Positions 390 to 12,548 of a stretch of DNA of 42,646 nt are shown in pieces. The DNA lies in contig VYCM01000041.1 of the NCBI GenBank assembly GCA_009843915.1, positions 1-42,646 on the forward strand, written 5' to 3'. The stretch comes from Acidimicrobiaceae bacterium. Lineage in GTDB: Bacteria; Actinomycetota; Acidimicrobiia; Acidimicrobiales; Aldehydirespiratoraceae. A program made the translations under genes and the position numbers. Below the pieces are notes generated by a model that was given only the letters and a program-made list of their open reading frames with translations, made no database searches and was not told where the DNA came from. Position 1 is the first letter of the stretch. Every line of letters begins with the position of its first letter.

Positions 390-1144
390 GCGCGGGTGAG
401 AGCGCCGGCAGCCAGTCCCCGATCAGGGACCGCCCCCCGATCGAGACTGCCCGTGCCCTGACGCTGCTGTCCAGCGGCGATGTGGAGTTGAGGGGGAGAA
501 TGCCCTACAGCTCCAATGCGACTTTCCTAGTGGACGTGACCCATGAGGGACTCGACGCTCAGGCCATCTACAAGCCGGTGCGGGGTGAGCGGCCCCTGTG
601 GGACTTCCCTTCCGGCCTGGCCCACCGCGAGGCCGGCGCGTTCTGGATGGACGCCGCGCTCGGGTGGGACGTGGTTCCCCCCACCGTGGTGCGCGACGAC
701 CTGCCCTTCGACGAGGGGTCGCTCCAGCTGTTCATGCCCGCCGATTTCGAGGAGCACTACTTCACACTGGTGGAACAGGAGCGGCTCCGGCCCGAGCTGG
801 AGCGCATCTGCGCGCTCGACATCGTGATCAACAACACGGACCGCAAGTCGGGCCACTGCCTGCTCGGCACCGACGGCACCGTCTGGGCCATCGACAACGG
901 CCTGTCGTTCCACTCCCAGTTCAAGCTGCGCACCGTGATCTGGGACTTCGCCAACGAGCCGCTGCCCGACGAGGTGAGCCGGGCCCTGCGCTCATTGCGG
1001 GACACCGGCCTTCCCGAGCCCCTGGCCACGGCGCTCACGGCCCAGGAGCAGGACGCCACCCTGGCTCGGGCCGAGACGCTGCTGGACGCGGGACGGTTCC
1101 CGTCCGACGGCCACGGCCACCGCTGGCCCTGGCCGCTGGTCTAG
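371..1144 (+). CDS. SCO1664-like PI3/PI4-kinase-fold protein
   Basis: About 257 residues, resembling the actinobacterial SCO1664 family, which has a phosphatidylinositol 3-/4-kinase-like fold. Visible kinase elements are AIYKPVRGERP with the presumed ATP-contacting lysine, a catalytic-loop-like LDIVINNTDRKSGH with D and N in place, and a metal-loop-like WAIDNGLSFH. The frame stays open upstream, but that stretch is a shadow of the DUF3090 gene. In-frame GTG codons at 371 and 377 overlap the DUF3090 stop by about 19 bp and are the sensible starts; the choice between them is uncertain. The substrate of this family is not established: protein or lipid phosphorylation is inferred from the fold only. 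It is probably translationally coupled to the upstream gene and ends just before a hairpin that separates it from the convergent locus. Confidence 0.82.
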   Translation: MPVPQLSAGESAGSQSPIRDRPPIETARALTLLSSGDVELRGRMPYSSNATFLVDVTHEGLDAQAIYKPVRGERPLWDFPSGLAHREAGAFWMDAALGWDVVPPTVVRDDLPFDEGSLQLFMPADFEEHYFTLVEQERLRPELERICALDIVINNTDRKSGHCLLGTDGTVWAIDNGLSFHSQFKLRTVIWDFANEPLPDEVSRALRSLRDTGLPEPLATALTAQEQDATLARAETLLDAGRFPSDGHGHRWPWPLV

Positions 1145-1170: not shown

Positions 1171-2220
1171 TTAGCTCCGCAGGCGCGAGGCGCTGACTTC
1201 GCGCATGCGGGCCAGCACATCCACACCCAACTGGTGCCAGACGTGCAGCAGGTCCACCAGCACCCAGTTCTCCCGGATCAGCAGCCGGTCCTCGCCGCCG
1301 GCGGGGTCCGGAGACCGCTCCACCCGCCAGAAGTCGAGGCTGCGCATGTCGATCCGCCGGCCGGCGGGAGCGATGCCGAGCCACCCGTCACCGGTGACGG
1401 TCATGTGCATGCCCGGCCACGCGGTCACCGCCACGTAGTCACCGTCGGCGAAGTAGCTGTGCTCGCCGTGGTAGCCCCCGCCGCGGTCGGGCATGGCGGC
1501 AAGGAACGGGATCTGGTGCCAGCGGCGGAAACCGTCGACGCCGCGGGCGGTCCCGATCCCGGCCGGCCCGTACCAGCTGAACTTCGGGTGCCACCAGTGC
1601 TCGAGGTTCATCGCCTCGACGGGTCTTGCCGGGTGCTTGACCATGTCGCTGAGCATCCCGACGACATGGCGTAGGCTCGCCTCTGAACGGGCGGGATCAC
1701 GGGGCCCCGGCACGAGGCCGTCACCGGGTGCGGGGCCAGGAACGTGCCACTCGCGGCCGAGCGACGGACCCATGGGCCACGTCCCCGACTGGATCATCAG
1801 CTCGGGCAGGTCCCAGAGAGCCTGCATCTCGACCACCCGGCCATCGGCTACCCGGTAGTACTCGTGAAACCTCATGGCGGCCTGCTGGCCCGACGGCGGG
1901 ATGCCGCAGAACGGCCCGACCCAGGTACCCGTGTAGTGCCCGCAGCACCCCACCCAGCCGTTGTCGTATGGGTCCGGGCCGGCCATAACGATCGTGTCGC
2001 GCCGCTCGAGGTCGGGCATGGCCCTCTGCAGCGGGGCCAGCGCCTCGCCCAGCAGGCCGGAGGGACCGTCGAGATCCTCGAAGGGGTGGGCCAGGTGAAC
2101 CTCGGCGTCCGGCGCGAACACTGCGTCCAGCGCCGCGCTGACCCGGTCGTCGTCGTAGTCATAGAGGGCGGCGCGCAGCGGACTGAGCAGCGCCTTGTTG
2201 GCGTTATGGGCGTCGCTCAT
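1171..2220 (-). CDS. Two-domain SnoaL/NTF2-like protein (paralogue 1)
   Basis: About 349 residues built from two NTF2/SnoaL-like halves, roughly residues 10-145 and 185-349. SnoaL-fold proteins are small cone-shaped domains that act as cyclases, isomerases, hydrolases or binding subunits; the reaction here cannot be read from sequence. The ATG at 2220 is preferred because AGGA lies 9 nt upstream; a GTG at 2241 would overlap the stop of the upstream gene. It shares several blocks with the protein at 4564-5616: RVADGR at the end of the first half, GPxGIG near the start of the second, and NWV followed by DLLH close to the C-terminus. The two are therefore ancient duplicates. It is the last gene of the ABC transporter locus, 17 bp after the MetE-like gene. 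Cytoplasmic, with no signal peptide. Confidence 0.72.
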   Translation of the reverse strand: MSDAHNANKALLSPLRAALYDYDDDRVSAALDAVFAPDAEVHLAHPFEDLDGPSGLLGEALAPLQRAMPDLERRDTIVMAGPDPYDNGWVGCCGHYTGTWVGPFCGIPPSGQQAAMRFHEYYRVADGRVVEMQALWDLPELMIQSGTWPMGPSLGREWHVPGPAPGDGLVPGPRDPARSEASLRHVVGMLSDMVKHPARPVEAMNLEHWWHPKFSWYGPAGIGTARGVDGFRRWHQIPFLAAMPDRGGGYHGEHSYFADGDYVAVTAWPGMHMTVTGDGWLGIAPAGRRIDMRSLDFWRVERSPDPAGGEDRLLIRENWVLVDLLHVWHQLGVDVLARMREVSASRLRS

Positions 2221-2237
2221 GGCCCGCAGTCCTGAGA

Positions 2238-3389
2238 TCACCAGAGCCGGCTGCTGGCCAGCTCGGCTCCCTTGGCCAGGGCGGCCAGCTTGGCGTAGGC
2301 GATCTCCGGGTCGATGCCCGCGTAGCCGGCGAAGGTGGAGAACCCACAGTCGGTCCCCGCTATCACCCGCTCACGCCCCACGATCGCCGCGAACCGCTCG
2401 ATCCTCTGCGCAATCAACTCGGGATGCTCCACGAAGTGGGTGGTGGTGTCGATCACGCCCGGCGCCAGCACCAGGTCGTCGTCGAGGTCCGCCTCCGCGA
2501 AGACCGTCCACTCGTGGGCGTGCCGGGGGTTGGCCGTCTCGAACAGCAGCGTCCGGGGCTTGGCGGCCAGCGCGATGGGCAGCACCTGCTCCATGGGCGC
2601 GTCTTGGGTGTGGGGTCCCTCGTAGTTTCCCCAGCACACGTGCAGGCGGATCCGGTCGGCGTCGATGTTCCGCACCGACCAGTTGAGGGCCTCCACTGCC
2701 ATTCGGGCGGCCCGCTCGTAGGCCTCGTCGGGCTGGCCCTTGAACATCATGTGCCGGCCCAGCCCGAGGTCGGGTGAGTCGAGCTGGAGCAGGAATCCCG
2801 CCGTCACGATGGCCTCGTACTCCAGACGCATCGCCTCGGCCAGGGCGTAGAGGTACTCCTCGTGGTCGCCGTAGTAGTCGTCAGGCTGGAACAGCGCGAT
2901 CACACCCGGAGAGGCCGCGTTCATGAATCCGCCCTCGGGCCGGTGACGCTCCAGCGCGGCGGCGAAGTTGGCGATGTCACGCCGGCAGGGCTCGCGGTCG
3001 GTGGGCGCCACGGGCCCCACGCAGCGGGGCCGCGTGTAGGTGGGGGTGCCGCCGCTGGCGGCTTGGCGCTGGAGGAACGACGGGTACTCCTCGAGGTCGG
3101 CGGGCGCCCGTCTGGGGCTGTCACCGGCGAAGCCGCTGATCCGGTACTTGATGTAGGTGGCGTAGCTGAGCTTGCTCATCTCGCCGTCGCTCACCAGGTC
3201 CACACCCGAGGCGACTTGGCGGGCGACCACCTCGTCCACCGCGGCAGCCACCGTCGCGTGGTGCTCGTCGATGTCGACCTCGTCCTCGTTCTCGATCGCG
3301 AACACACCGGCGGTCACCGCCTCCGAGCGCGGCAGGCTGCCGACGTGGGTGGTGAGGATCCGCCCGGCACCCTCCGTCGGAGCGCTCAT
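2238..3389 (-). CDS. Cobalamin-independent MetE-like zinc methyltransferase
   Basis: 383 residues, about half the length of true MetE and matching its C-terminal catalytic barrel (COG0620/UROD-MetE superfamily). The N-terminus TTHVGSLPR is a family hallmark. The expected zinc ligands are present: H250 and C252 in HVCWGN, E284 in FETANP, and C348 in GTDCGF. This group includes short methionine synthases and thiol alkyltransferases such as epoxyalkane:coenzyme M transferase. The zinc site activates a thiol, but the alkyl donor and acceptor here are unknown. The start overlaps the ATPase stop (ATGA at 3386-3389), and the gene lies inside a transport operon rather than beside methionine genes. 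I therefore infer transfer of a methyl or alkyl group to or from the imported compound. Confidence 0.83.
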   Translation of the reverse strand: MSAPTEGAGRILTTHVGSLPRSEAVTAGVFAIENEDEVDIDEHHATVAAAVDEVVARQVASGVDLVSDGEMSKLSYATYIKYRISGFAGDSPRRAPADLEEYPSFLQRQAASGGTPTYTRPRCVGPVAPTDREPCRRDIANFAAALERHRPEGGFMNAASPGVIALFQPDDYYGDHEEYLYALAEAMRLEYEAIVTAGFLLQLDSPDLGLGRHMMFKGQPDEAYERAARMAVEALNWSVRNIDADRIRLHVCWGNYEGPHTQDAPMEQVLPIALAAKPRTLLFETANPRHAHEWTVFAEADLDDDLVLAPGVIDTTTHFVEHPELIAQRIERFAAIVGRERVIAGTDCGFSTFAGYAGIDPEIAYAKLAALAKGAELASSRLW

Positions 3390-4564
3390 GATCTGATGGC
3401 GAGATGGGTCTGGCGGTCGAAGAAGTGCAGGTGCCGCGCATCCACGTTCACTCTGGCCCGGTCGCCGACCCTCGCAGTGGACGAGGCCGAGAAGCGGGCG
3501 GTGCAGCGTCCGCTGTCCCGCAGCTCGTCGAGGGCGTCGGGGTCGCCACTGTCGACGCTCGGGGCGCTGAGATTGAAGTGGACCAGCGTCTCGGCCCCCA
3601 GCGCCTCCCGGACGTCCACCGTGGCGTCGAGACGCTGGTCATCGGGGTGGTCAGCCACGACCGCGGCGTCCTCGAGGTGCTCGGGGCGGATACCGACGAC
3701 AACCGGGCGGTTCAGGTGTTCGGCGAGCGCGGGGCGCTCGGCGAACACCTCTGGGGGAACCGCCAGGCGCTGGTCGCCGAGGACCACCGAGTAGCGGTCA
3801 CCGCCGGCCTCCTCGTGCCGCTCGAGGGTGGCCTCGTAGAGGTTCATCGAGGGAGACCCGATGAAGGCGGCGACGAACACGTTGTCGGGACTGCCATAGA
3901 TGCCCTCGGGCGTGTCGACCTGCTGCAGGATGCCGTCCTTGATCACGGCCACCCTGTCGCCCATGGTCATGGCCTCAACCTGATCGTGGGTCACGTAGAA
4001 CGTCGTGACTCCCAGCTCGCGCTGGATCCCGGCTATGTCGGCCCGCATCTGCACTCGCAGCTTGGCGTCCAGGTTCGACAGCGGCTCGTCCATGAGGAAG
4101 AGCGCGGGGTGGCGCACGATGGCCCGCCCCATGGCGACCCGCTGCCGCTGGCCACCGGACAGGTGAGCGGGCTTCTTCTCGAGCTGCTCGGTCAGTTCCA
4201 GGATCTCGGCTGCCTGGCGCACCTGTGCCTCGCGTTCGGCCCTGGGCACGCGTCGCAGCTTCAGCGGGAAGGCGATGTTCTCGGCCACCGTCATCTGCGG
4301 GTACAGGGCGTAGTTCTGGAACACCATGGCCATGTCGCGATCCTTGGGGGCGACGTCGTTGAGGCGGCGGTCGCCGACGTAGATGTCGCCGCTGGTGATG
4401 TCCTCGAGCCCGGCGATCATCCGCAGAGCAGTCGACTTGCCGCACCCGGAGGGACCAACGAGCACCAGGAACTCGCCGTCATCGAGGTGCAGGCTGAGGT
4501 CCGTGATGGCACGGAAGCCGTTGGGGTAGTCCTTGACGAGGTTCTTGAGGGTGACGGTGGACAT
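3386..4564 (-). CDS. Carbohydrate-type ABC transporter ATPase (MalK/UgpC/MsmX family)
   Basis: 392 residues. Walker A GPSGCGKST spans residues 37-45, the Q-loop is VFQNYALYPQMTV near 81-93, the signature LSGGQRQRV is at 135-143, and Walker B LFLMDEP is at 155-161 followed by the D-loop SNLDAKLR. The region after about residue 240 is the regulatory TOBE-type domain of MalK-like ATPases (GIRPEH motif). It should power import through the two permeases encoded upstream. Its ATG overlaps the stop of the preceding SnoaL-like gene as TGATG, and its own stop overlaps the next start, so translation is tightly coupled. MalK-type ATPases sometimes serve several importers, but this position suggests a dedicated role. 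Confidence 0.93.
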   Translation of the reverse strand: MSTVTLKNLVKDYPNGFRAITDLSLHLDDGEFLVLVGPSGCGKSTALRMIAGLEDITSGDIYVGDRRLNDVAPKDRDMAMVFQNYALYPQMTVAENIAFPLKLRRVPRAEREAQVRQAAEILELTEQLEKKPAHLSGGQRQRVAMGRAIVRHPALFLMDEPLSNLDAKLRVQMRADIAGIQRELGVTTFYVTHDQVEAMTMGDRVAVIKDGILQQVDTPEGIYGSPDNVFVAAFIGSPSMNLYEATLERHEEAGGDRYSVVLGDQRLAVPPEVFAERPALAEHLNRPVVVGIRPEHLEDAAVVADHPDDQRLDATVDVREALGAETLVHFNLSAPSVDSGDPDALDELRDSGRCTARFSASSTARVGDRARVNVDARHLHFFDRQTHLAIRS

Positions 4565-5616
4565 CAGAACTCCTTGATCCCGAGCAGGTGACGCATGCGA
4601 TCCAACGGCTCCAGTCCCTGCTGGGACAGCCAGTGGAGCAGATCGATGAACACCCAGTTGTCAGCGAGCTTGTCGCCTTCGCGGCGGTACACATCCACGA
4701 CCCGCATCTCTGCGGGACCGCTGGCCGGCAGCCCGAGAAAGCCACCGCGGGGCCGGTGGGACACGTTGGCCCACCCGAACCACGCCGCGTAGCGGCCCTC
4801 GGCCAGCCGGGCAACATGGCCGTGGAACTCCTTGTCGGTCAGGCCGAAACGGAACGGGAGCGAGTGCTGCTGCCGGTAGCGCTCGATCGTGTAGCTGGCG
4901 CCGATGCCGTCGGGTCCGACCCAGAGCATGTCGTCGTGCCAGCAGCGGGCCAGAACCTCGTGGGGCAGCCGGTCCTCACCGGACTCGCGAGCGATGCGGT
5001 TGGCCTCGCTGAGGTCTTCCGCCATGCGCCGGGCCAGGGCCAGGGTGGCCTTGCCCTCGGCCGGGTCCTGCTCGTCGTAGAGCAGGCCATCACCCGTACG
5101 GGGGCCGACGTAGAAGCCGGGCTGGCCGGTGGGGGGCGGCAACGGGAACTGGCCGGCCTGGCGCATGACGCTCAGCAGGTCACAGAACATGGCCGTCTCG
5201 GCGATGCGGCCGTCGGCGACCCGGCTGAACTCGGCGTAGCGCAGCAGCGCCACCCGCCGGGTCGGGGGCATGTCGAGCCATGGCCCGTCGAAGAGGCCCA
5301 TCAGGTGGCCCATGGAGCACACCCAGGTGGTGGCCCCGTCGTCGACGTCGTTGGCTCCGGCGAAGAACACGTCGCAGCGGCGTTGAAGGGGGGCCATGGC
5401 TCGCACCAGCGGCTGCCAGAAGACCTCGGCCACAGCCTGGACACCCCGCTGCTCGTAGAAGGGGTGCATGCCACGCCAGAGGTAGTCCTCGGACACACCG
5501 GCCCCCAGCGCCTCGGCGATGTCGCCGGTCGTGGCGTCCCTTGCCCGGCACGCCGCGCCCAGCGCCTCGTGATAGTCCAGCACCACCTTCTTGGCTTCCT
5601 GAAGGTGCGCGGCCAC
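4564..5616 (-). CDS. Two-domain SnoaL/NTF2-like protein (paralogue 2)
   Basis: 350 residues, with two SnoaL-like halves separated near residue 170. It shares with the 1171-2220 protein the blocks VADGR, GPDGIG, LPF and the C-terminal NWVFIDLLH. Tryptophan- and histidine-rich stretches (WRGMHPFYE, CWHDDMLWVGP) resemble pocket-lining segments of SnoaL-type enzymes. No catalytic residue can be named with confidence. It starts with GTG 6 bp after the MalG-like permease stop, and its stop overlaps the ATPase ATG, so it sits between transporter components. That position implies a job linked to the imported substrate. Cytoplasmic; no signal peptide or membrane segment. The enzyme activity is unknown, and a binding or scaffold role is also possible. 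Confidence 0.72.
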   Translation of the reverse strand: MAAHLQEAKKVVLDYHEALGAACRARDATTGDIAEALGAGVSEDYLWRGMHPFYEQRGVQAVAEVFWQPLVRAMAPLQRRCDVFFAGANDVDDGATTWVCSMGHLMGLFDGPWLDMPPTRRVALLRYAEFSRVADGRIAETAMFCDLLSVMRQAGQFPLPPPTGQPGFYVGPRTGDGLLYDEQDPAEGKATLALARRMAEDLSEANRIARESGEDRLPHEVLARCWHDDMLWVGPDGIGASYTIERYRQQHSLPFRFGLTDKEFHGHVARLAEGRYAAWFGWANVSHRPRGGFLGLPASGPAEMRVVDVYRREGDKLADNWVFIDLLHWLSQQGLEPLDRMRHLLGIKEF

Positions 5617-5622
5617 GGCTGC

Positions 5623-6708
5623 TCAGCCCTTGACTGCGCCGGCGCCGAGACCCCGGACGAGGTGCTTCTGGAACAGGATGATCACGATCACGATGGGAAG
5701 GGTGATCGACACCGACGCAGCCGCCGCTTCGGTGATCGTGCGCGAGCTCTCGCCGCCGGTCAGCGACACGATCGCCACCGGCAGCGTCCACTCCGTGGGG
5801 GCCAGCACCCTCACGAACAGGTACTCGTTGTAGGCCAGCAGCATCGTGAACAGGCCCGTCGCGATGATGGCGGGCCACATGATGGGGATGATCACCTTGC
5901 GGAAGGCCTGCAGCCGGGTGGCGCCGTCCATCATGGCGGCCTCCTCCATCTCCTTGGGCACCTCGATGAAGAAGCTGCGCAGCATCCAAATGGTGAACGG
6001 CTGGTTCACGGCCACCAGGGCGAGCACGATGGCCAGCCGCGTGTCCAGGACTTGAAGGGTGTCGATTCCGGGGAAGTCGATCAGAGGGAAGTTCCAGGAG
6101 CCGACGCCGGTGCTGGTGAGCCACTCGTCGATCTCCTTGGCGCCGAAGAAGTACGGGAGCACGAACGCCGTCCGGGGCAGCGCCCGGAATCCCAGTGCGA
6201 CGATCAGGATGACCGCGCCGGAGATGCCGGTGTAGCGGGCAAGGCCGTATCCGGCCAGCAGCCCGATGGACAGCGAGATGAGCATGGTCAGAAGCGTGAC
6301 GACGACGCTGTTGACCAGGAAGTCGTACTCGTCGTTGGCCTCCCAGAATCGGGGGAAGCGCCACAGCGCGACGCAGATCACCGCGGTGGCTCCCAGGAAC
6401 CACGGCCAACCATGGCGGGCACGGCGCCCGATCAGGCCCAGCGCAGCGGCGATAGCGGCGATCACCAGTACGAACGCCAGCACGCCCCACATGTTCACGT
6501 CGTCAGAGTCGAGCCAGAAGTTGCGGTAGGCGTTGGCCGTGGTCTCGTACCCCCACAGCACGGGGGTCTTCGAGGCGACGTCGCGGGTGAACTTGATGGA
6601 CGTCTGGGCGGTCCACACGAACGGTGTGACGCTCCACACCACCAGCAGGATCATTACGGCGTGGAGCGCGATCCGTGATGGCCGGATAGAGGGCCGCGAG
6701 AGCTTCAC
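5623..6708 (-). CDS. Carbohydrate ABC transporter permease (MalG-like) with extra hydrophobic insertion
   Basis: 361 residues, clearly longer than the usual 270-300. The first membrane segment is at residues 15-33. The core permease domain runs from about residue 128, with the EAA loop EVPKEMEEAAMMDGATRLQAFRKVIIP contacting the ATPase. The family's usual short link between segment 1 and the core is replaced by about 55-60 residues (66-122) containing two extra hydrophobic stretches, near 74-94 and 102-117. The C-terminus LFQKHLVRGLGAGAVKG is typical of MalG-type subunits. It starts with GTG 3 bp after the MalF-like stop. With that partner it forms the membrane channel. The effect of the insertion is unknown. 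Confidence 0.92.
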   Translation of the reverse strand: MKLSRPSIRPSRIALHAVMILLVVWSVTPFVWTAQTSIKFTRDVASKTPVLWGYETTANAYRNFWLDSDDVNMWGVLAFVLVIAAIAAALGLIGRRARHGWPWFLGATAVICVALWRFPRFWEANDEYDFLVNSVVVTLLTMLISLSIGLLAGYGLARYTGISGAVILIVALGFRALPRTAFVLPYFFGAKEIDEWLTSTGVGSWNFPLIDFPGIDTLQVLDTRLAIVLALVAVNQPFTIWMLRSFFIEVPKEMEEAAMMDGATRLQAFRKVIIPIMWPAIIATGLFTMLLAYNEYLFVRVLAPTEWTLPVAIVSLTGGESSRTITEAAAASVSITLPIVIVIILFQKHLVRGLGAGAVKG

Positions 6709-6711
6709 GGG

Positions 6712-7578
6712 TCAGGTCCTCTCCGCGATCTGGTCGCGGTAGCTGCGCCACAGGAACGGTATGAGCACGACGAAGATGCCGATGACGGTGAGGACCGCGA
6801 TGGCGTTGCCCTTGCCCAGCCGGCCGATGTCGAAGGCGGTGGCGATCCTGACGTTGTAGACCGCCAGGGTGTGGGCCTCGGTGAACCGGTTGCCGGTCCA
6901 CACGAACACGCTGTCGTAGACGCGGTAGGCGTCCATGACCGAGATCAGGCCCACGAACACCACCAGCAGCCGCAGGTGCGGCAGGGTGACGTGCCAGAGG
7001 TTGCGCCAGAAGCCGGCCCCGTCGAGGGCCGCTGCCTCGACCCGCTCCTCGGGAAGCGTCTGCAGCCCCGCGAAGAAGGTGATCATGGCGAAGGGCATGA
7101 CGTACCAGATGTACTGGACCACGATCAACACCTTGACGTTTGAGGCGCTGACCGCGAAGGCGTCGTCGGTGAACACCTCCCACAGCCAGGAGACCAGTCC
7201 GCCCCGCTCGAACAGGTCCTCGTAAATGAGCGTCCCCACTACGGGGGTGACGATGAACGGGAGCAGCAGCGCGGCCATGTAGATGGCACGCCCTCGCCCG
7301 ATCCGGTCGAGCAGCAGCGCCACGGCGAGGCCGAAGACCATCGACGCCGGCACGGTTACCACGACGAATACCAGCGTGAACTGCACCGCGGCCCAGAACT
7401 CCGGGTCCGACAGCACGTCGCGGTAGTTGTCCCAGCCCACCCATTCGGGGTTGTTGAGGTCTCGGAGGAGCAGCTTCTGGAAGCCCAGCCAGACCGTGGT
7501 TATCAGCGGGAACACCATCAGGGCCAGCATGACGATCACGCTCGGGATGGTGAACCACCAGAACGTTCGTCGATTCAC
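6712..7578 (-). CDS. Carbohydrate ABC transporter permease (MalF-like)
   Basis: 288 residues with about six membrane segments, the first at residues 9-28 (WFTIPSVIVMLALMVFPL). The ATPase-docking EAA loop is TLPEERVEAAALDGAGFWRNLWHVTLP, near residues 175-200. It pairs with the downstream MalG-like subunit. The GTG start is supported by GGGAGGA 7 nt upstream. The gene follows the binding-protein gene after 92 bp that contain a strong hairpin, while everything downstream is packed with few or no spacer bases. The substrate class (sugar, polyol or glycerol-phosphate-like) is inferred from the subfamily only. Confidence 0.93.
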   Translation of the reverse strand: MNRRTFWWFTIPSVIVMLALMVFPLITTVWLGFQKLLLRDLNNPEWVGWDNYRDVLSDPEFWAAVQFTLVFVVVTVPASMVFGLAVALLLDRIGRGRAIYMAALLLPFIVTPVVGTLIYEDLFERGGLVSWLWEVFTDDAFAVSASNVKVLIVVQYIWYVMPFAMITFFAGLQTLPEERVEAAALDGAGFWRNLWHVTLPHLRLLVVFVGLISVMDAYRVYDSVFVWTGNRFTEAHTLAVYNVRIATAFDIGRLGKGNAIAVLTVIGIFVVLIPFLWRSYRDQIAERT

Positions 7579-7617
7579 GGCCGTGTCCTCCCGCTTGGGA
7601 ACCCTACGCGTTGGGGG

Positions 7618-7661
7618 GACTGGGGGTAGGCGGGGTCGGAACCCATCGCCTACCCCCAGTC
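7618..7661 (-). promoter_or_regulatory. Long intercistronic hairpin after the binding-protein gene
   Basis: Two 15-base arms, 7618-7632 and 7647-7661, are perfectly complementary and enclose a 14-nt loop that can itself pair GGGT with ACCC. The hairpin begins 10 bp after the stop codon of the solute-binding protein and ends about 40 bp before the MalF-like start. There is no T-tract. Such stems often stabilise the upstream message or partly terminate transcription, so that more binding protein than permease is made; that role is inferred here. Confidence 0.7.
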
Positions 7662-7670
7662 ATCCAAGTG

Positions 7671-9167
7671 CTAGAGCAGTCCCTGCTCGGACGCCTCGGC
7701 CAGGTAGGCGGCCTCGGCGGCGGCCAGGGCGTCGGCGACCGGCGTGCCGTCGAGGATCGTCACGAGCGCCTCGCCGAGCTTGGCCCGGGCCAGGCCGGCG
7801 GCCGGATGGGTGAGGTCGGCTCCGCGACCCCGCACCAGGCTCGCCTCGGCCGCAGCCGCGTCGCGCGGGCCGTTGGGATGGGACACGCCTGTGCGAGTCA
7901 CCAGGCCGAACTCGGCCGCAGCCTCCTGGCTCTCGAGGTCGGTGGCGGCCAGCATCACCAGGAAGATGTGCTCGACCATGTCCTCTGGGGTGCCGACCGG
8001 GATCATCCAGCCGTCGATGTAGGCCGGCGCGGCCACGGTGTCGCCACCGGTGCCGAGCGCGGGCGCGAACTGGATCTCGCCCACCACGGTCGAGGCCTCG
8101 GGGTCGTCCATGGCCCCGGCCCGGGACGCCCAGGTGTGGCCGAGGATCGCCTCTCCAGTCTGGAAGGCGGCCTGCACGTCATCGGTGCTGTATGACCCGG
8201 CCGCGTCGGGCGCGCAGGTCTGCCACATGTCGCGCAGCAGCGTCGCGGCCTGGACTCCCTCAGGGCTGTTGAAGTTCGGCTGCCCGCTGACGGGATCGAT
8301 CGGGGTGACCCCCAGCGATCCGAGCACGCTGTCGAACTCGATCTGCCATGCCCATCCGGCGGAGAGCATGTACAGGAATCCGATGTCGTAGCCACTCGCG
8401 ATGATCTGCTGGCACGTGTCGAACGCTTCCGCGAACGTTGTCGGCACCGACATGCCCAGTTCCGCCATCGCAGGCTCGTTGTAGAAGACGTGCATGGTGT
8501 TGGAGATCATGGGGATCGAGTAGATGTTGCCGTCGATGGAGGCCATGTCCCAGAACGCAGCATCGATCTGGTCGAGATTGAACTCGTCCCGGTACTTGTC
8601 GATCAGGTCGTTGAGGGGCAGCACGAAACCCTGGTTGGCCAGCTCACCGATGAACGCGTTCGAGCCCTGGTAGACCTCGAAGGTCGGAGCACCCGTGGAG
8701 GCGTCCAGCGTCATGGCGTTGCGGGCCTCGACCGAGTCGAGGAATTGGTAGTTGAAGGAGTAGTTCCCCTCCTCGCAGTCCGCCACTTCCTCGGCGTACT
8801 GCGACACGATCGGGAACTCCCAACCCATCAGGTCGATCTCGATGTTCTCACTGGGGTTCGGGATCGGGCACTCATCGGAGATGAGCTCCATGGCCATCTC
8901 GGCCTCGGGCTCGGCCATCTCCTCCTCGGCCATCTCGGCCTCGGGCTCGGCCATCTCCTCCTCGGCCATCTCGGCCTCGGGCTCGGCCATCTCCTCCTCG
9001 GCCATCTCGGCCTCGTCGGTGGCGGCCTCTGTCGCTGCAGCCGTGGACGTGTCGGCGTCGGCTGCCGGGGCCGGCGCTTCGTCGTCATCCCCGCACGCGG
9101 CGGCGATGAGGGTCAGGGCACAGAAGGCGGCGAGGATTCGCCACCAACGGCGCGATGTTGCTTTCAT
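7671..9167 (-). CDS. Extracellular solute-binding lipoprotein of the ABC importer
   Basis: 498 residues. A lipoprotein signal peptide ends LIAAAC with the lipidated cysteine at residue 25. Next comes a low-complexity acidic and alanine-rich linker (about residues 26-95) holding a tandem repeat of EMAEEEMAEPEA. The mature binding domain follows, starting near SDECPIPNPSENIEIDLMGW. The rest resembles family 1 carbohydrate-binding proteins (COG1653): LNDLIDKY, a calmodulin-like aromatic-rich core and a C-terminal helical lobe. It should capture substrate outside the membrane and deliver it to the two permeases. AGGAGGGAAGAG just before the ATG is a good ribosome site. The 97 bp between this start and the cupin stop could hold an internal promoter, though none stands out. 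The ligand cannot be predicted. Confidence 0.9.
   Translation of the reverse strand: MKATSRRWWRILAAFCALTLIAAACGDDDEAPAPAADADTSTAAATEAATDEAEMAEEEMAEPEAEMAEEEMAEPEAEMAEEEMAEPEAEMAMELISDECPIPNPSENIEIDLMGWEFPIVSQYAEEVADCEEGNYSFNYQFLDSVEARNAMTLDASTGAPTFEVYQGSNAFIGELANQGFVLPLNDLIDKYRDEFNLDQIDAAFWDMASIDGNIYSIPMISNTMHVFYNEPAMAELGMSVPTTFAEAFDTCQQIIASGYDIGFLYMLSAGWAWQIEFDSVLGSLGVTPIDPVSGQPNFNSPEGVQAATLLRDMWQTCAPDAAGSYSTDDVQAAFQTGEAILGHTWASRAGAMDDPEASTVVGEIQFAPALGTGGDTVAAPAYIDGWMIPVGTPEDMVEHIFLVMLAATDLESQEAAAEFGLVTRTGVSHPNGPRDAAAAEASLVRGRGADLTHPAAGLARAKLGEALVTILDGTPVADALAAAEAAYLAEASEQGLL
8892..9015. repeat. 36-bp tandem repeat inside the binding-protein gene
   Basis: Three perfect copies of a 36-bp unit (8892-8927, 8928-8963, 8964-8999), plus a 16-bp partial copy, encode a 12-residue acidic repeat in the linker of the lipoprotein. 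Perfect identity at DNA level implies recent expansion or active homogenisation. Confidence 0.95.
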
Positions 9168-9264
9168 GTCTCTTCCCTCCTGAGGGATTGTTGTTGGGAC
9201 ATCTTCGACGCCTCATTGGCGCCGGAGACCATGACGGACCGGGGGCTCATGGCGGGTGGGCGGT

Positions 9265-10413
9265 TCATGGAGCAGCCCCCGACACCAGTGACGCAGGGGC
9301 CAGGTAGCCGGACGCGTCGCGACTCCAGCCGTTGTCAGCGGCCGACTGAGCGAGCGCCTCGTCCCAGAGGATTCGAGGACGCTGCTGCGAGTTGCACACG
9401 ATCAGCGCGTACGCCTCCGACTCGCCGACGTTCACGAAGTCTCTCCACGCGCCGGGAGGCACCGAGACCACGGAGCCCTCCTCGGGGCGCCCTGCCAGCC
9501 GGTCCGCGCCGCGGTTGACGGAGACCTCCCACCGCCCTCCTGTCAGGATCACGGCCTGAGGCGCGGCCAGCCGGTGCAAGCCGAAGCTTGCGCCCGGAGC
9601 GGCCCGCAACCACTCGACGCTGAACCCGTGGGGATTGGTGATCGGCGGCCGGTGGTGGCGGTCCTCGGTCACGCCGTGGCCGATGACGGGCGCCAGCTCG
9701 ACCGGCGGTGATGCGCCATTCAGGGAGACGCTCGACAGCAGGGCATGCCGCGACCAGGCGAGGTCGGCGAGCGTCACGGCCCGTGCGGCCAGATCGGTGT
9801 CGCTGTAGCTGTCCAGAGAGGACAGCTGCGACGGCCCCAGCGGTTCGACGCAATTCTTGGGAGCCCGGCCATCGGTGGCCTCGATGACGGTGCCGTCAGG
9901 CCCGAGGAACAGACCGGTCTCGGCGGCGGCCCTCAGCACACTGGGAGCCCAGACGATCCCGCCTGTCTCGTCGCCGCCGAGCACCGCGTACAGCCAGCCG
10001 TCGTCCGGGCCGATGTTCTCGAATCCCCGGAACACCCAGGTCGGAACGGAGAACACCGTCCCCGCCGAGATGTCGAGGGTCTGCTGGCCGTGCTCACCGA
10101 TCCGCATGCGCCAGGCGCCTCGAGTGCAGATGAACACCTCGGCCGTGAAGTGCATGTGCTGGTTGTTGACGACTCCGTGGCCCATTGAGGCCGCGCCGAC
10201 ATGGAAGCCGTGCGCCTCGGGGAGATTCACCACCTGGTCGGGGTTCTGCGACACGCCCGGCCCGATGAGCGAGTAGCTCGCCTTGCCGGATGAGCGGGGC
10301 AGGCGCACATCCACGAAGGCCGACCGGTCCGCGACGAACTCGCCGGGCCGGATGACCCGGCGCGCGAACTCCGAGGGATCGAGCGTCAACGCAGGTTCAG
10401 CAGCGGCTGTCAT
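9265..10413 (-). CDS. Bicupin protein
   Basis: 382 residues with two cupin domains. In the first, QHMHFTAEVFICTRG fits HxH(x)3E(x)6G (H86, H88, E92, G99), so three metal ligands are present. The second cupin motif, PTWVFRGFEN, has Arg129 where the fourth ligand histidine is usual. The second cupin (about residues 270-365) has lost HxH and the glutamate and again has Arg in PPGAWRDFVN. One metal site in the N-terminal half is therefore likely, with a structural C-terminal half. Bicupins of this kind include dioxygenases, isomerases and decarboxylases; the reaction here is not known. The ATG overlaps the LacI stop (ATGA at 10410-10413); the open frame further upstream is only a shadow of the regulator gene. 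It probably acts on the imported compound. Confidence 0.82.
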   Translation of the reverse strand: MTAAAEPALTLDPSEFARRVIRPGEFVADRSAFVDVRLPRSSGKASYSLIGPGVSQNPDQVVNLPEAHGFHVGAASMGHGVVNNQHMHFTAEVFICTRGAWRMRIGEHGQQTLDISAGTVFSVPTWVFRGFENIGPDDGWLYAVLGGDETGGIVWAPSVLRAAAETGLFLGPDGTVIEATDGRAPKNCVEPLGPSQLSSLDSYSDTDLAARAVTLADLAWSRHALLSSVSLNGASPPVELAPVIGHGVTEDRHHRPPITNPHGFSVEWLRAAPGASFGLHRLAAPQAVILTGGRWEVSVNRGADRLAGRPEEGSVVSVPPGAWRDFVNVGESEAYALIVCNSQQRPRILWDEALAQSAADNGWSRDASGYLAPASLVSGAAP

Positions 10414-11492
10414 CGGCCTGCACTCGGTTCGGTGCCGCAGTTGCGTCTGGAGTACGACCCTGGCCTCGCCCGGCCGGCGTCTCCCTTGCGGGTGGTGAGG
10501 CCGCGGCGCAGCGTGCCCGCCACCACCACCGACGGCGGTGGCGCGTCGGAGGAATCGGAGCCGTCGCCTGAGGCGAGTTCCACGGCGTGCTCGGCGAGCT
10601 GGTCGGCCGGCTGAACCAGCGTGGTCAGGTCGTAGCCGGCCCAGCTCGCCTGGGGCAGCCCGTCGAAGCCGGTCACGAGCACGTCGGCCGGCGCGGTCAG
10701 CCCGCGGCGGCGGAGGCCGTCCAGCATCCCGAAGGCCACCTCGTCGCTGCCGACCATGATCGCGTCGGGAAGCCTGTCGAGGTTCACCACCGTGTCGGCG
10801 GCCCGGTAGCCGGCGTCGTAGGTGAAGGCGCCCGCTTCCATGTAGTTGCAGGTCGCGCCGGTGGAAGCGAGCGTGCGGGCTGCGCCTCTGAAGCGAGCCC
10901 GATCGGTAGAGGCCGCCGCCACCCCTCCCAGGTAGAGGACTCGGGTGCATCCGAGGCCGGCGAGGTGGCGGGCCAGCTCTGAGGCGCCGGCCTCGTTGTC
11001 GACAGTCACCGAGGGGACGATCCCGGCCGCGTCGGGATGGTTGAAGGCCACCAGCGACAGTCCGGTCTGTCGCATCCGGGCCAGTTGGGCCTCGGCGATG
11101 TTGGCGGAGGCCAGGATCAGCCCGTCGAGGCGGTACTGCATGACCGCTTCGAGGGTCTCGTTCACCTCGGCGTGGTCGAGGAAGCTGAACAGCAGCAGTT
11201 GCCGGCCACGGGCGGTGAGACGGCGAGAGAAGTAGGTCACCACGTTCTGCCAGTACTCGCCCAGCGCGGGAACGACGGCACCGACGATGTTGGTGCGCTG
11301 GGACTTGAGGCTGCGGGCGATGGCGTTGGGCACATAGCCGAGCCGGTCCGCGGCGGCTTCGATCTTGAGGCGCGTGTCGGGTGCCACCACCTCAGGGGTT
11401 GTGAAGCACCTGGCGACGGTGGCCTGCGAGACGCCTGCGGCCGCGGCGACGTCCACTGATGTGACTGGGCGCTTGCGGTCCGGTCGGACCAT
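10410..11492 (-). CDS. LacI-family transcriptional regulator
   Basis: 360 residues. The N-terminal helix-turn-helix is at about residues 12-32 (VDVAAAAGVSQATVARCF), followed by the hinge region LGYVPNAIARSLKSQRT and a periplasmic-binding-protein-like effector domain from about residue 68 (NIVGAVVPAL) to 330. LacI regulators of importer loci usually repress until the substrate or a product binds. The operator-like palindrome just upstream of its own start suggests autoregulation and control of the genes behind it. It overlaps the bicupin gene by 4 bp. The C-terminal 25 residues (KGDAGRARPGSY onward) are basic and unlike the family core. The start is the ATG at 11492; both an AGGA element 7 nt upstream and a leaderless arrangement fit it. 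Confidence 0.93.
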   Translation of the reverse strand: MVRPDRKRPVTSVDVAAAAGVSQATVARCFTTPEVVAPDTRLKIEAAADRLGYVPNAIARSLKSQRTNIVGAVVPALGEYWQNVVTYFSRRLTARGRQLLLFSFLDHAEVNETLEAVMQYRLDGLILASANIAEAQLARMRQTGLSLVAFNHPDAAGIVPSVTVDNEAGASELARHLAGLGCTRVLYLGGVAAASTDRARFRGAARTLASTGATCNYMEAGAFTYDAGYRAADTVVNLDRLPDAIMVGSDEVAFGMLDGLRRRGLTAPADVLVTGFDGLPQASWAGYDLTTLVQPADQLAEHAVELASGDGSDSSDAPPPSVVVAGTLRRGLTTRKGDAGRARPGSYSRRNCGTEPSAGR

Positions 11493-11498
11493 CCGACG

Positions 11499-11527
11499 AT
11501 CCTATGTATACGTATTCATCGTTGCAA
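11499..11527 (-). promoter_or_regulatory. Promoter of the LacI gene, probably leaderless
   Basis: Reading the minus strand, TTGCAA (11522-11527) and TAGGAT (11499-11504) are separated by exactly 17 bp, and the -10 box lies 6 nt before the ATG. Transcription would then start at or next to the start codon. This is a sequence-only prediction. Confidence 0.6.
11504..11519. promoter_or_regulatory. Operator-like palindrome for the LacI regulator
   Basis: ATGTATACGTATTCAT pairs at 7 of 8 positions around a central CG, the usual layout of LacI-family operators. It fills the spacer between the -35 and -10 boxes, so a bound repressor would block RNA polymerase. No second copy was seen before the binding-protein gene. 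Confidence 0.75.
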
Positions 11528-11579
11528 CCACAGGCCGCGCGAGACTTGCCTTCTCGGCGAGGCGGCCGGCGTCCGAAGG

Positions 11580-12548
11580 TCAGCCGGTGTGCAGCAGGAT
11601 CTGCCTCCACACGGCTGTCTCGTCGATCAGCACCCACTCGCGGCGCAGGCCGCGAGGGCCGATTTCGGCGTGGCTGATTCCCATGACGTGGACGTCGGCG
11701 CCGCTGGGCCGGCCGAAGGCCCCCCAGCCGTCGTGGGCACCGGTCAGCGACCAGCGCAGCGCGGCCCGGGGACCCAGGCCGTCGTCGTCGCGTCCGATGC
11801 GGTGGTGGATCTCGAAGCGGGCCTGGGGCAGGGAGCTGCGCAGCCGGAGCCAGAACCGGTCGGCCTCGGCCCGTCCGTGGCCGGTGCGGCCACCTGGCAG
11901 CTCAAGTTGAACGGCCCTGTCGTAGTGCTCGGCGACCACGTCCAGGCCACCGTCCATCACTCGCTCCAACATGTCCGCATAACGGTCGCCCGCCGGATGG
12001 TCGTTGCCCGCGCCGGTGTAGGCGGGTGCGGCATCCAATGACGGGTGGAACGGACGACGGCACGCCCCGGGTCCGCCCTCCGCATCGATCTGCTCCGCGA
12101 CGTATCGCTTGGGGTCCAGGCCTAGCTGGCGCACGATCGCACCCTGGTCCCGTACCAGCCACTCGTCGTAGATCTGGTTCTGGCGGGCTGCGCAATCGGC
12201 AATGATGCGGTAGCGCAGCTGGGTGCCGGTCGGCGGCCCGTAGGCACCGTCGCCGCTGTGGGTAGCCAGCGACATGATCCGGTGCGACGACAGGAAGCCG
12301 GCCTCATCGTCGCCGCTCCAGATCACGTCCTCGCCCAGGAGCTGGCGGTCGCCGAAGGTGGCTAGGGTCGCAAGTGTGGCGGCGATCACGCCCCGGTTGC
12401 CCTTGACTATCCCCTCCGGTGACCGCACGACGATGTCGGGCGCGTAGAGCTCCTCGAGGGCGTCGACCTCGCGGCCCTCCCAGATCCGGTAGGTGATGCC
12501 GAGGATGTAGTCAGGCAGGTCCCGGTAGCGGGGGTCGAAGCCCTTCAC
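11580..12548 (-). CDS. Two-domain SnoaL/NTF2-like protein (paralogue 3, divergent)
   Basis: 322 residues with a first SnoaL-like half at about residues 10-150 (DPRYRDLPDYILGITYRIWE, YAPDIVVRSPEGIVKG) and a second at about 185-322. It shares the general plan of the two paralogues downstream and a C-terminal REWVLIDETAVWRQ that matches their NWVLVD region, but it is clearly more divergent and lacks the GPxGIG block. It lies 14 bp after etfA on the same strand and 88 bp before the LacI start, so it may belong to the etf transcript, to the transporter locus, or to both. The start is GTG at 12548, with only a weak ribosome site. The function is unknown; a role in the same pathway as the other two is inferred from synteny. 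Confidence 0.7.
   Translation of the reverse strand: MKGFDPRYRDLPDYILGITYRIWEGREVDALEELYAPDIVVRSPEGIVKGNRGVIAATLATLATFGDRQLLGEDVIWSGDDEAGFLSSHRIMSLATHSGDGAYGPPTGTQLRYRIIADCAARQNQIYDEWLVRDQGAIVRQLGLDPKRYVAEQIDAEGGPGACRRPFHPSLDAAPAYTGAGNDHPAGDRYADMLERVMDGGLDVVAEHYDRAVQLELPGGRTGHGRAEADRFWLRLRSSLPQARFEIHHRIGRDDDGLGPRAALRWSLTGAHDGWGAFGRPSGADVHVMGISHAEIGPRGLRREWVLIDETAVWRQILLHTG

Follow-up and report, generated by a model that had tools for sequence, protein, structure and literature searches.

Catabolism of syringate and 3-O-methylgallate (DesA, MgaC/DesC, MgaD, LigK/GalC), as set out in the sections of the reports available to us, unites a SnoaL-like putative tautomerase, an alpha/beta hydrolase, methyl removal and a terminal aldolase for 4-carboxy-4-hydroxy-2-oxoadipate (CHA) (PMC12314914, PMC8091115). 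All four elements have counterparts in the gene clusters described here, the main type of which nonetheless differs from syringate catabolism in having no labelled ring dioxygenase or GcvT-type demethylase and in possessing a CUT1 ABC importer along with HisD-like and short-chain (SDR) dehydrogenases. Our starting point is one such cluster on the minus strand (12548-1171) of a 42,646-nucleotide stretch (the window; contig VYCM01000041.1) from an Acidimicrobiaceae bacterium of the class Acidimicrobiia, the closest named matches of whose MetE-like protein are 78% identical. This locus very probably represents, in Acidimicrobiia, a widespread module for importing and catabolising a small polyol-like compound with a transferable methyl group. 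While the catabolic module is well supported, its compound is not. This catabolic operon is built from known families, and our literature searches, which covered openly licensed papers, retrieved no description of their combination or of the system, or of catabolic genes for mycosporine-like amino acids (MAA), the substrate class that we favour below.

Every cluster gene named in an initial annotation of this DNA was confirmed by open reading frames (ORFs), Pfam and NCBIfam. Three two-domain SnoaL proteins, a LacI regulator, a bicupin, a complete CUT1 importer and a zinc MetE-like enzyme make up the cluster:

11580..12548, minus strand: SnoaL_C, two-domain SnoaL/NTF2-like protein, 322 aa (PF12680 64.6 bits, PF07366 60 bits, both over cut-off)
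10410..11492, minus strand: LacI-family regulator, 360 aa (PF00356 45.9 bits, PF13377 81 bits, over cut-off)
9265..10413, minus strand: bicupin with two cupin domains, 382 aa (PF07883 37.7 bits, PF00190 30.4 bits, over cut-off)
7671..9167, minus strand: extracellular solute-binding protein (SBP) of sugar type, 498 aa (PF01547 96.1 bits)
6712..7578, minus strand: ABC permease, MalF/UgpA type (PF00528 over cut-off; best NCBIfam model UgpA, below cut-off)
5623..6708, minus strand: ABC permease, MalG/UgpE type (PF00528 over cut-off; best NCBIfam models GlcU/MalG, below cut-offs)
4564..5616, minus strand: SnoaL_B, two-domain SnoaL/NTF2-like protein, 350 aa (PF07366 56.1 bits)
3386..4564, minus strand: ABC ATPase, UgpC/MalK type, 392 aa (NF008653 447.7 bits, cut-off 432)
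2238..3389, minus strand: MetE-like zinc methyl/alkyl-transferase, catalytic half only, 383 aa (zinc/homocysteine residues aligned with MetE chains)
1171..2241, minus strand: SnoaL_A, two-domain SnoaL/NTF2-like protein, 356 aa (PF07366 80.2 bits)

The true start of the bicupin, at 10413, is internal to a longer ORF. Counted from SnoaL_A upwards, the intergenic distances are -4, -4, -1, 6, 3, 92, 97, -4 and 87 bases; the spacings of 87-97 bases precede lacI, the SBP gene and the first permease gene, and elsewhere genes overlap or lie a few bases apart. Because of these overlaps SnoaL_A, MetE-like, ATPase and SnoaL_B genes are tied together, and so are those for cupin and LacI. Hence both the interleaving of the importer with SnoaL, MetE-like, bicupin and LacI genes and the claim that overlaps bind most of the set, as put forward in the initial annotation, held up. 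Its inclusion of etfBA did not: although these genes lie 14 bases upstream of SnoaL_C in the window, we rejected them as cluster members on the grounds that they are not found in the 6.7 kb upstream of SnoaL_C in G075, a genome of the same family (that side is not shown in other relatives).

To judge recurrence, genome contigs were scanned by alignment with the MetE-like protein, which confirmed at least 571 relatives; the counts that follow refer to the best 80 loci, each counted once. Partner labels denote similarity clusters within about 10 kb, so common families (SDR, ATPase, LacI) may take in unrelated neighbours, and absences in ten loci mean little since these are shorter than 9 kb. Co-occurrence of SnoaL and MetE-like genes with the importer had been named beforehand as a check on the single-pathway idea of the annotation, and it was borne out: any SnoaL gene is present in 62 of the 80 loci and is joined by an ABC permease in 32. 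The cupin occurs in 64, SnoaL_C in 58, the SnoaL_A/B type in 52 and LacI in 58, with further partners being HisD-like (55), SDR (51), alpha/beta hydrolase (44), HpaI (29), RraA (25) and amidohydrolase (14). As for transport, the PermG-type ABC permease is found in 33 loci, a TonB receptor in 20 and a sodium symporter in 16, and 23 loci combine SnoaL with a TonB receptor, symporter or MFS transporter in place of the ABC permease. ABC permeases go together with RraA in 19 loci and with HpaI in 2, while TonB/symporter/MFS loci without ABC pair with HpaI in 23 and with RraA in 1. To our minds, this looks like two editions of one modular catabolic pathway, ABC/RraA and TonB-symporter/HpaI.

The module ranges over Acidimicrobiia, Alpha-, Beta- and Gammaproteobacteria, Chloroflexi and SAR324 metagenome-assembled genomes, with a more distant form in a haloarchaeon, and as the same gene set surrounds orthologues in other phyla the cluster is not a chance assembly. 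In G075, a single strand carries SnoaL_C, LacI, HisD-like, SDR (34% identical to its nearest labelled relative), cupin, alpha/beta hydrolase, SBP, two permeases, SnoaL_B, ATPase, MetE-like and SnoaL_A genes. Ruegeria conchae unites orthologues of SnoaL_A, B and C, MetE-like (59% identical), cupin, LacI and ABC genes in a single cluster that also has SDR, a HisD-like protein, extra SnoaL genes and an amidohydrolase. A tblastn search with SnoaL_B returned 23 plasmid records (Vibrio, roseobacters, Ensifer, Rhizobium, Paracoccus, Halobellus); the Vibrio records are of two kinds, both with SnoaL_B, symporter and MFS genes and one also with LacI and a serine lyase. Two neighbouring clusters of the same type, each with its own ABC genes and SnoaL_C, are present on a plasmid of Ensifer adhaerens (L017:9359-28984). 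On a plasmid of the haloarchaeon Halobellus limi (L016:10596-16989) five SnoaL genes accompany a MetE-like gene, a region that may be an archaeal version with other ABC genes.

The MetE-like protein retains the zinc and homocysteine residues of MetE. Its zinc ligands H250, C252, E284 and C348 are invariant in 25 aligned sequences and line up with those of MetE chains; the same holds for S18, E70 and D204, whose counterparts in the MetE motifs we take to anchor homocysteine. Among 84 labelled MetE-like ORFs, HxCWGNxEGP is present in 81, VGS[LF]PR in 79, D[GS]E in 83 and QxDxPD in 83, one miss (L039_6663) being without any of the motifs. Compared to core methionine synthase (3rpd, 1xdj), the protein is 15-20% identical, stands in a catabolic genetic context and lacks the N-terminal half of full-length MetE, its 383 residues matching the C-terminal half in alignments (394-733 of 1xdj, for example). 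We presume kinship with epoxyalkane:coenzyme M transferase; no such chain is named among the PDB matches of the protein. The enzyme could also be a core methionine synthase of the ordinary kind, or recycle 5-methyl-tetrahydrofolate (5-methyl-THF), and serve only one-carbon metabolism downstream, in which case the SnoaL-pathway substrate would carry no methyl group. This is improbable given that it scores far under every methionine-synthase cut-off listed (best 102 of 406 bits; NCBIfam) and tracks the SnoaL/cupin/HisD set, with at least four of six core partners (cupin, SnoaL_C, LacI, HisD, SDR, alpha/beta hydrolase) in 55 of the 80 loci, albeit that this tracking rests on the best 80 loci only, six of which (L056, L058, L072, L083, L092, L093) have no partner. 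The family has a different setting on a Rhodococcus plasmid (L112:12028-15785), where the genes for a MetE-like protein and a 2-oxoglutarate/Fe oxygenase overlap and one of the phytanoyl-CoA dioxygenase family lies farther along.

All three window SnoaL proteins exceed a Pfam SnoaL cut-off, and the NTF2-like fold was modelled for SnoaL_B (AlphaFold, pLDDT 94.7), each half of which matches NTF2/SnoaL folds; its fold searches gave many NTF2 enzymes among the matches and singled out no one reaction. Window SnoaL_C and its G075 counterpart are 66% identical. Tree building gave a SnoaL_C clade of 62 sequences from 57 loci (window SnoaL_C was not among the sequences used, its frame having failed the length filter), a SnoaL_A clade of 30 sequences, one per locus, in which the window protein is joined by the Ruegeria and Vibrio pelagius copies (support 0.86), and a SnoaL_B clade of 22 sequences in 22 loci (support 1.0). 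Across a class sample of 198 genomes, SnoaL_B homologues are present in four, own genome included. At L141:6400-10536, a cluster-free SnoaL_B homologue adjoins two pyridoxal-phosphate enzymes, one D-cysteine desulfhydrase-like and one cysteine desulfurase-like (both below cut-off), neighbours which may indicate amino-acid chemistry again.

The initial annotation saw no dehydrogenase alongside the importer. This is correct for the window cluster, which lacks HisD, SDR and alpha/beta hydrolase genes, yet not for its relatives with their frequent HisD-like and SDR partners. A HisD-like gene followed by an SDR gene does lie on another contig of the window genome (C13:29320 onwards), its product being 79% identical to the in-cluster HisD-like protein of locus L019. 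Similarly, RraA and HpaI genes are absent from the window cluster, and other contigs of the genome hold 2 RraA-like and 3 HpcH/HpaI-like matches (family level); in relatives, the RraA-type partner keeps the catalytic Arg-Asp of CHA aldolase in 25 of 27 cases. The nearest solved relative of the HisD-like partner is HpsN (8v35), the 3-dehydrogenase of R-2,3-dihydroxypropane-1-sulfonate (R-DHPS), at 385 bits versus 237 for the best histidinol dehydrogenase, which might point to a DHPS-like sulfonate pathway. According to the part of the HpsN report available, the final His of its motif G-R-Y-A/S-H is HpsN-specific and recognises the sulfonate (PMC11382572). The HisD-like partner differs in just this respect: neither that motif nor G-S-A-P-L of histidinol dehydrogenase occurs in any of 63 HisD-like sequences (for each motif, 60 read otherwise and 3 are unreadable). 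Since the HpsN motif is missing from all 60 readable sequences, the sulfonate pathway is largely refuted, and we rejected it as scarcely credible. With a motif of its own, G[KR][FY]P[ML] (e.g. L063:3525-4856), the partner appears to form a third histidinol-dehydrogenase subfamily distinct from HisD and HpsN.

SBP, two permeases and a MalK/UgpC-type ATPase are all present (Pfam, NCBIfam) and thus make the CUT1 importer complete. It resembles UgpABCE/MalEFGK-type systems in that the ATPase exceeds the UgpC cut-off and permeases and SBP exceed those of their Pfam families; it differs in that SBP and permeases pass no specific NCBIfam model. The solved chains nearest to the SBP are for the most part sugar- or polyol-binding proteins. 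Together with LacI, such an importer and binding protein would suit an O-methylated sugar or sugar acid, from which SDR would form a lactone for opening by the amidohydrolase or SMP-30, HisD-like would oxidise the terminal CH2OH, SnoaL proteins would act as dehydratases or isomerases, HpaI/RraA would cleave and MetE-like would handle the methyl group. In line with this, the amidohydrolase is similar to L-fuconolactonase, and HpaI to 2-dehydro-3-deoxyglucarate aldolase (both below cut-off), and the L108 cluster edge has an SMP-30/gluconolactonase and an aldolase. We nevertheless consider a sugar somewhat unlikely: the recurrent families that received labels include no glycosidase, kinase or known sugar-acid dehydratase, the serine lyase found beside some clusters (see below) is left without explanation and an unactivated methyl ether is not easily a methyl donor to a zinc thiolate. 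The cupin residues H85, H87 and E91 (Ruegeria numbering) are identical in 57 of 57 aligned sequences.

Other contexts of the MetE-like gene bear on methoxylated or methylated natural products at large (a methoxy-aromatic, methoxy-cyclitol or C7N cyclitol), whose breakdown to CHA-like acids could follow the same scheme. The sphingomonads Novosphingobium, Sphingobium and Croceicoccus have a MetE-like gene (51-53% identical) together with a small NTF2/SnoaL gene, both situated within or close to loci that encode a GcvT-fold protein, by context of the LigM/DesA kind, and carry the folate one-carbon genes MetF, PurU and FolD; ligA is present at the Novosphingobium and Croceicoccus loci and ligK at that of Croceicoccus. 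On three sphingomonad plasmids (L109:14995-16520, L110:14995-16508, L111:14992-16508), the MetE-like gene overlaps this small NTF2/SnoaL gene, and an IclR regulator comes next. In Halobellus, about 9 kb or more separates the SnoaL/MetE-like set from a DesA/LigM-like protein (below cut-off). These contexts favour a connection between the MetE-like/SnoaL pair and methoxy compounds while also allowing use of 5-methyl-THF, and in sphingomonads the pair could possibly be an unrecognised step in methoxy-aromatic one-carbon handling. Also in keeping with a methoxylated product, the excerpted report on the SnoaL-like MgaD gives it a putative role in syringate catabolism (PMC12314914). Against this stand a sugar-type importer, unusual for aromatic acids, and the make-up of the main cluster, whose labelled recurrent families include neither an extradiol dioxygenase nor a GcvT-type demethylase, so that we regard such a product, taken generally, as unlikely.

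A substrate should, to our minds, account for a sugar-like importer that has no glycosidases with it, an enzyme that handles methyl groups, a dehydrogenase of the CH2OH-to-COOH type, a CHA/KDG-type aldolase and serine. MAAs combine a polyol-like cyclohexenone/imine ring with an O-methyl group, a quaternary C-OH bearing CH2OH, and Gly plus Ser or Thr. MAA ring and CHA skeletons presumably match in having seven carbons, a quaternary C-OH bearing a C1 branch and two flanking CH2 groups. We therefore tentatively propose that the substrate may be an MAA (shinorine, porphyra-334, mycosporine-glycine) or 4-deoxygadusol, the core of such compounds. LacI would de-repress once the compound is taken up, through the ABC importer here and through TonB receptor and symporter in other lineages; two-domain SnoaL enzymes would hydrolyse the C=N/C-N links, which would release Ser/Thr and Gly and leave 4-deoxygadusol; the MetE-like enzyme would move the O-methyl group to a zinc-bound thiol, most likely that of homocysteine; and HisD-like dehydrogenase and SDR would oxidise the ring CH2OH to COOH. 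Cupin and/or alpha/beta hydrolase would then open the cyclic reductone to a C7 acid with the CHA skeleton, for an RraA- or HpaI-type aldolase to split into pyruvate and oxaloacetate. Taken as a whole, this route, with NTF2-fold hydrolases stripping amino acids, a folate- and cobalamin-free MetE-like enzyme removing the enol methyl ether to homocysteine and the ring ending via CHA as pyruvate and oxaloacetate, is doubtful in its entirety. Bacterial conversion of MAAs has been suggested for Vibrio harveyi, where removal of Ser/Thr from shinorine and porphyra-334 equals the first step proposed here; the portion of that report at hand names no genes for it (PMC3083659). As to the view in the initial annotation that the imported compound carries a transferable methyl group and is processed by SnoaL proteins, the intact zinc/homocysteine sites would fit a methyl-bearing compound, but relatives add HisD-like, SDR, hydrolases and an aldolase beyond what it foresaw.

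Release of serine would link this proposal to an L-serine ammonia-lyase (TIGR00720; 621 and 685 bits for the two tested, cut-off 345). Its gene is inside loci L034, L042, L046, L048 and Vibrio L012, which amounts to 4 of the 80 in-locus. A search in 68 of the 80 genomes (18 + 50), which counted hits that shared the contig of the locus and lay no more than about 1 kb from its edge, added L025, L026 and L089, while the L035 lyase is on a different contig (3.9 kb) that also carries homologues of the cluster alpha/beta hydrolase and cupin. This makes 8 of 68 genomes (7 without L035) from about five lineages. A Poisson estimate with rough inputs (60 copies, 30 kb, 4 Mb; lambda 0.45), post hoc and with L035 counted, gave P about 3e-8 for 8 neighbours and about 1e-4 for 5 lineages. 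As controls, SHMT and GcvP scored 0 each in 40 cluster genomes by the same measure; one SHMT is truly on the L077 contig, 15.9 kb outside the locus edge and so beyond it, and 20 coordinate-compatible SHMT/GcvP matches were ruled out by the extent of contigs, others being judged by coordinates or known local genes. For the lyase itself, coordinates allowed a position adjoining the clusters of L029, L085, L073 and L081 that the extent of contigs ruled out, as it did for seven more coordinate-compatible or nearby matches, and the Vibrio pelagius lyase was not counted as it lies beyond a sarcosine oxidase operon. Threonine ammonia-lyase, searched in 46 genomes/records, was found at L041 itself only, with relatives at L064 and L084 7 to 10 kb from the MetE-like gene.

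Several points weigh against an MAA as the substrate. The serine-lyase enrichment was noticed after the fact, and since 3 loci have threonine-lyase-like ORFs at up to 10 kb (a full one at L041, ORFs only 38% alike at L064 and L084) the in-locus count of 4 of 80 is not far above the control. In the other 60 of 68 genomes serine lyase was not near the cluster or not found, and none is in any ABC/RraA-type locus checked. Nor did it occur in the stretches covered from 8 gammaproteobacterial genomes sampled later; these had been chosen with SnoaL_B-like genes, two of them weak matches, large clusters are present in 4 and three have further SnoaL places outside the stretches covered. SnoaL_B is also found without the cluster in G560, G619 and Vibrio, and a related MetE-like gene occurs in folate one-carbon loci where 5-methyl-THF could be its donor. 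A methyl ether gives up its methyl group poorly to a zinc thiolate, and SDR, lactonase-like amidohydrolase and KDG-type aldolase would fit an O-methyl sugar or sugar acid too.

The regulator combines a LacI helix-turn-helix with a periplasmic-binding-like domain, both in the 10410..11492 product (Pfam). Two DNA elements accompany the cluster:

11505..11518, between SnoaL_C and lacI: LacI-type operator-like palindrome TGTATACGTATTCA (6/7 half-site matches)
7619..7660, minus strand, between SBP and first permease genes: perfect 14-bp inverted repeat (arms 7647-7660 and 7619-7632)

Palindromes of like form occur in the same SnoaL_C-lacI gap of G075, L018 and L022 (L113:875, L018:898, L022:629), and none was found in the stretches covered of L019, L021 and L023. 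As the pattern searched for was the site itself, the chance figure of that search says nothing about it. TGTATACGTATTCA is only proposed as a LacI operator. The inverted repeat has no T run and is possibly an mRNA-stability hairpin. Near the window edge (434-1144, plus strand), a protein with a PI3/PI4-kinase-like domain (PF00454 33.9 bits) is encoded convergently with SnoaL_A.

Database records name these families just 'ester cyclase', 'histidinol dehydrogenase' and 'methionine synthase II', and plasmid records label the HisD-like protein as HisD. The spread of the module across phyla points to a common natural compound whose breakdown was not found described. Were it an MAA, the genes would account for what becomes of a major class of sunscreens made by algae and cyanobacteria and would include an O-demethylation free of B12 and folate. 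Even if it is not, three SnoaL families, a third HisD subfamily and the MetE-like family acquire roles that can be tested.

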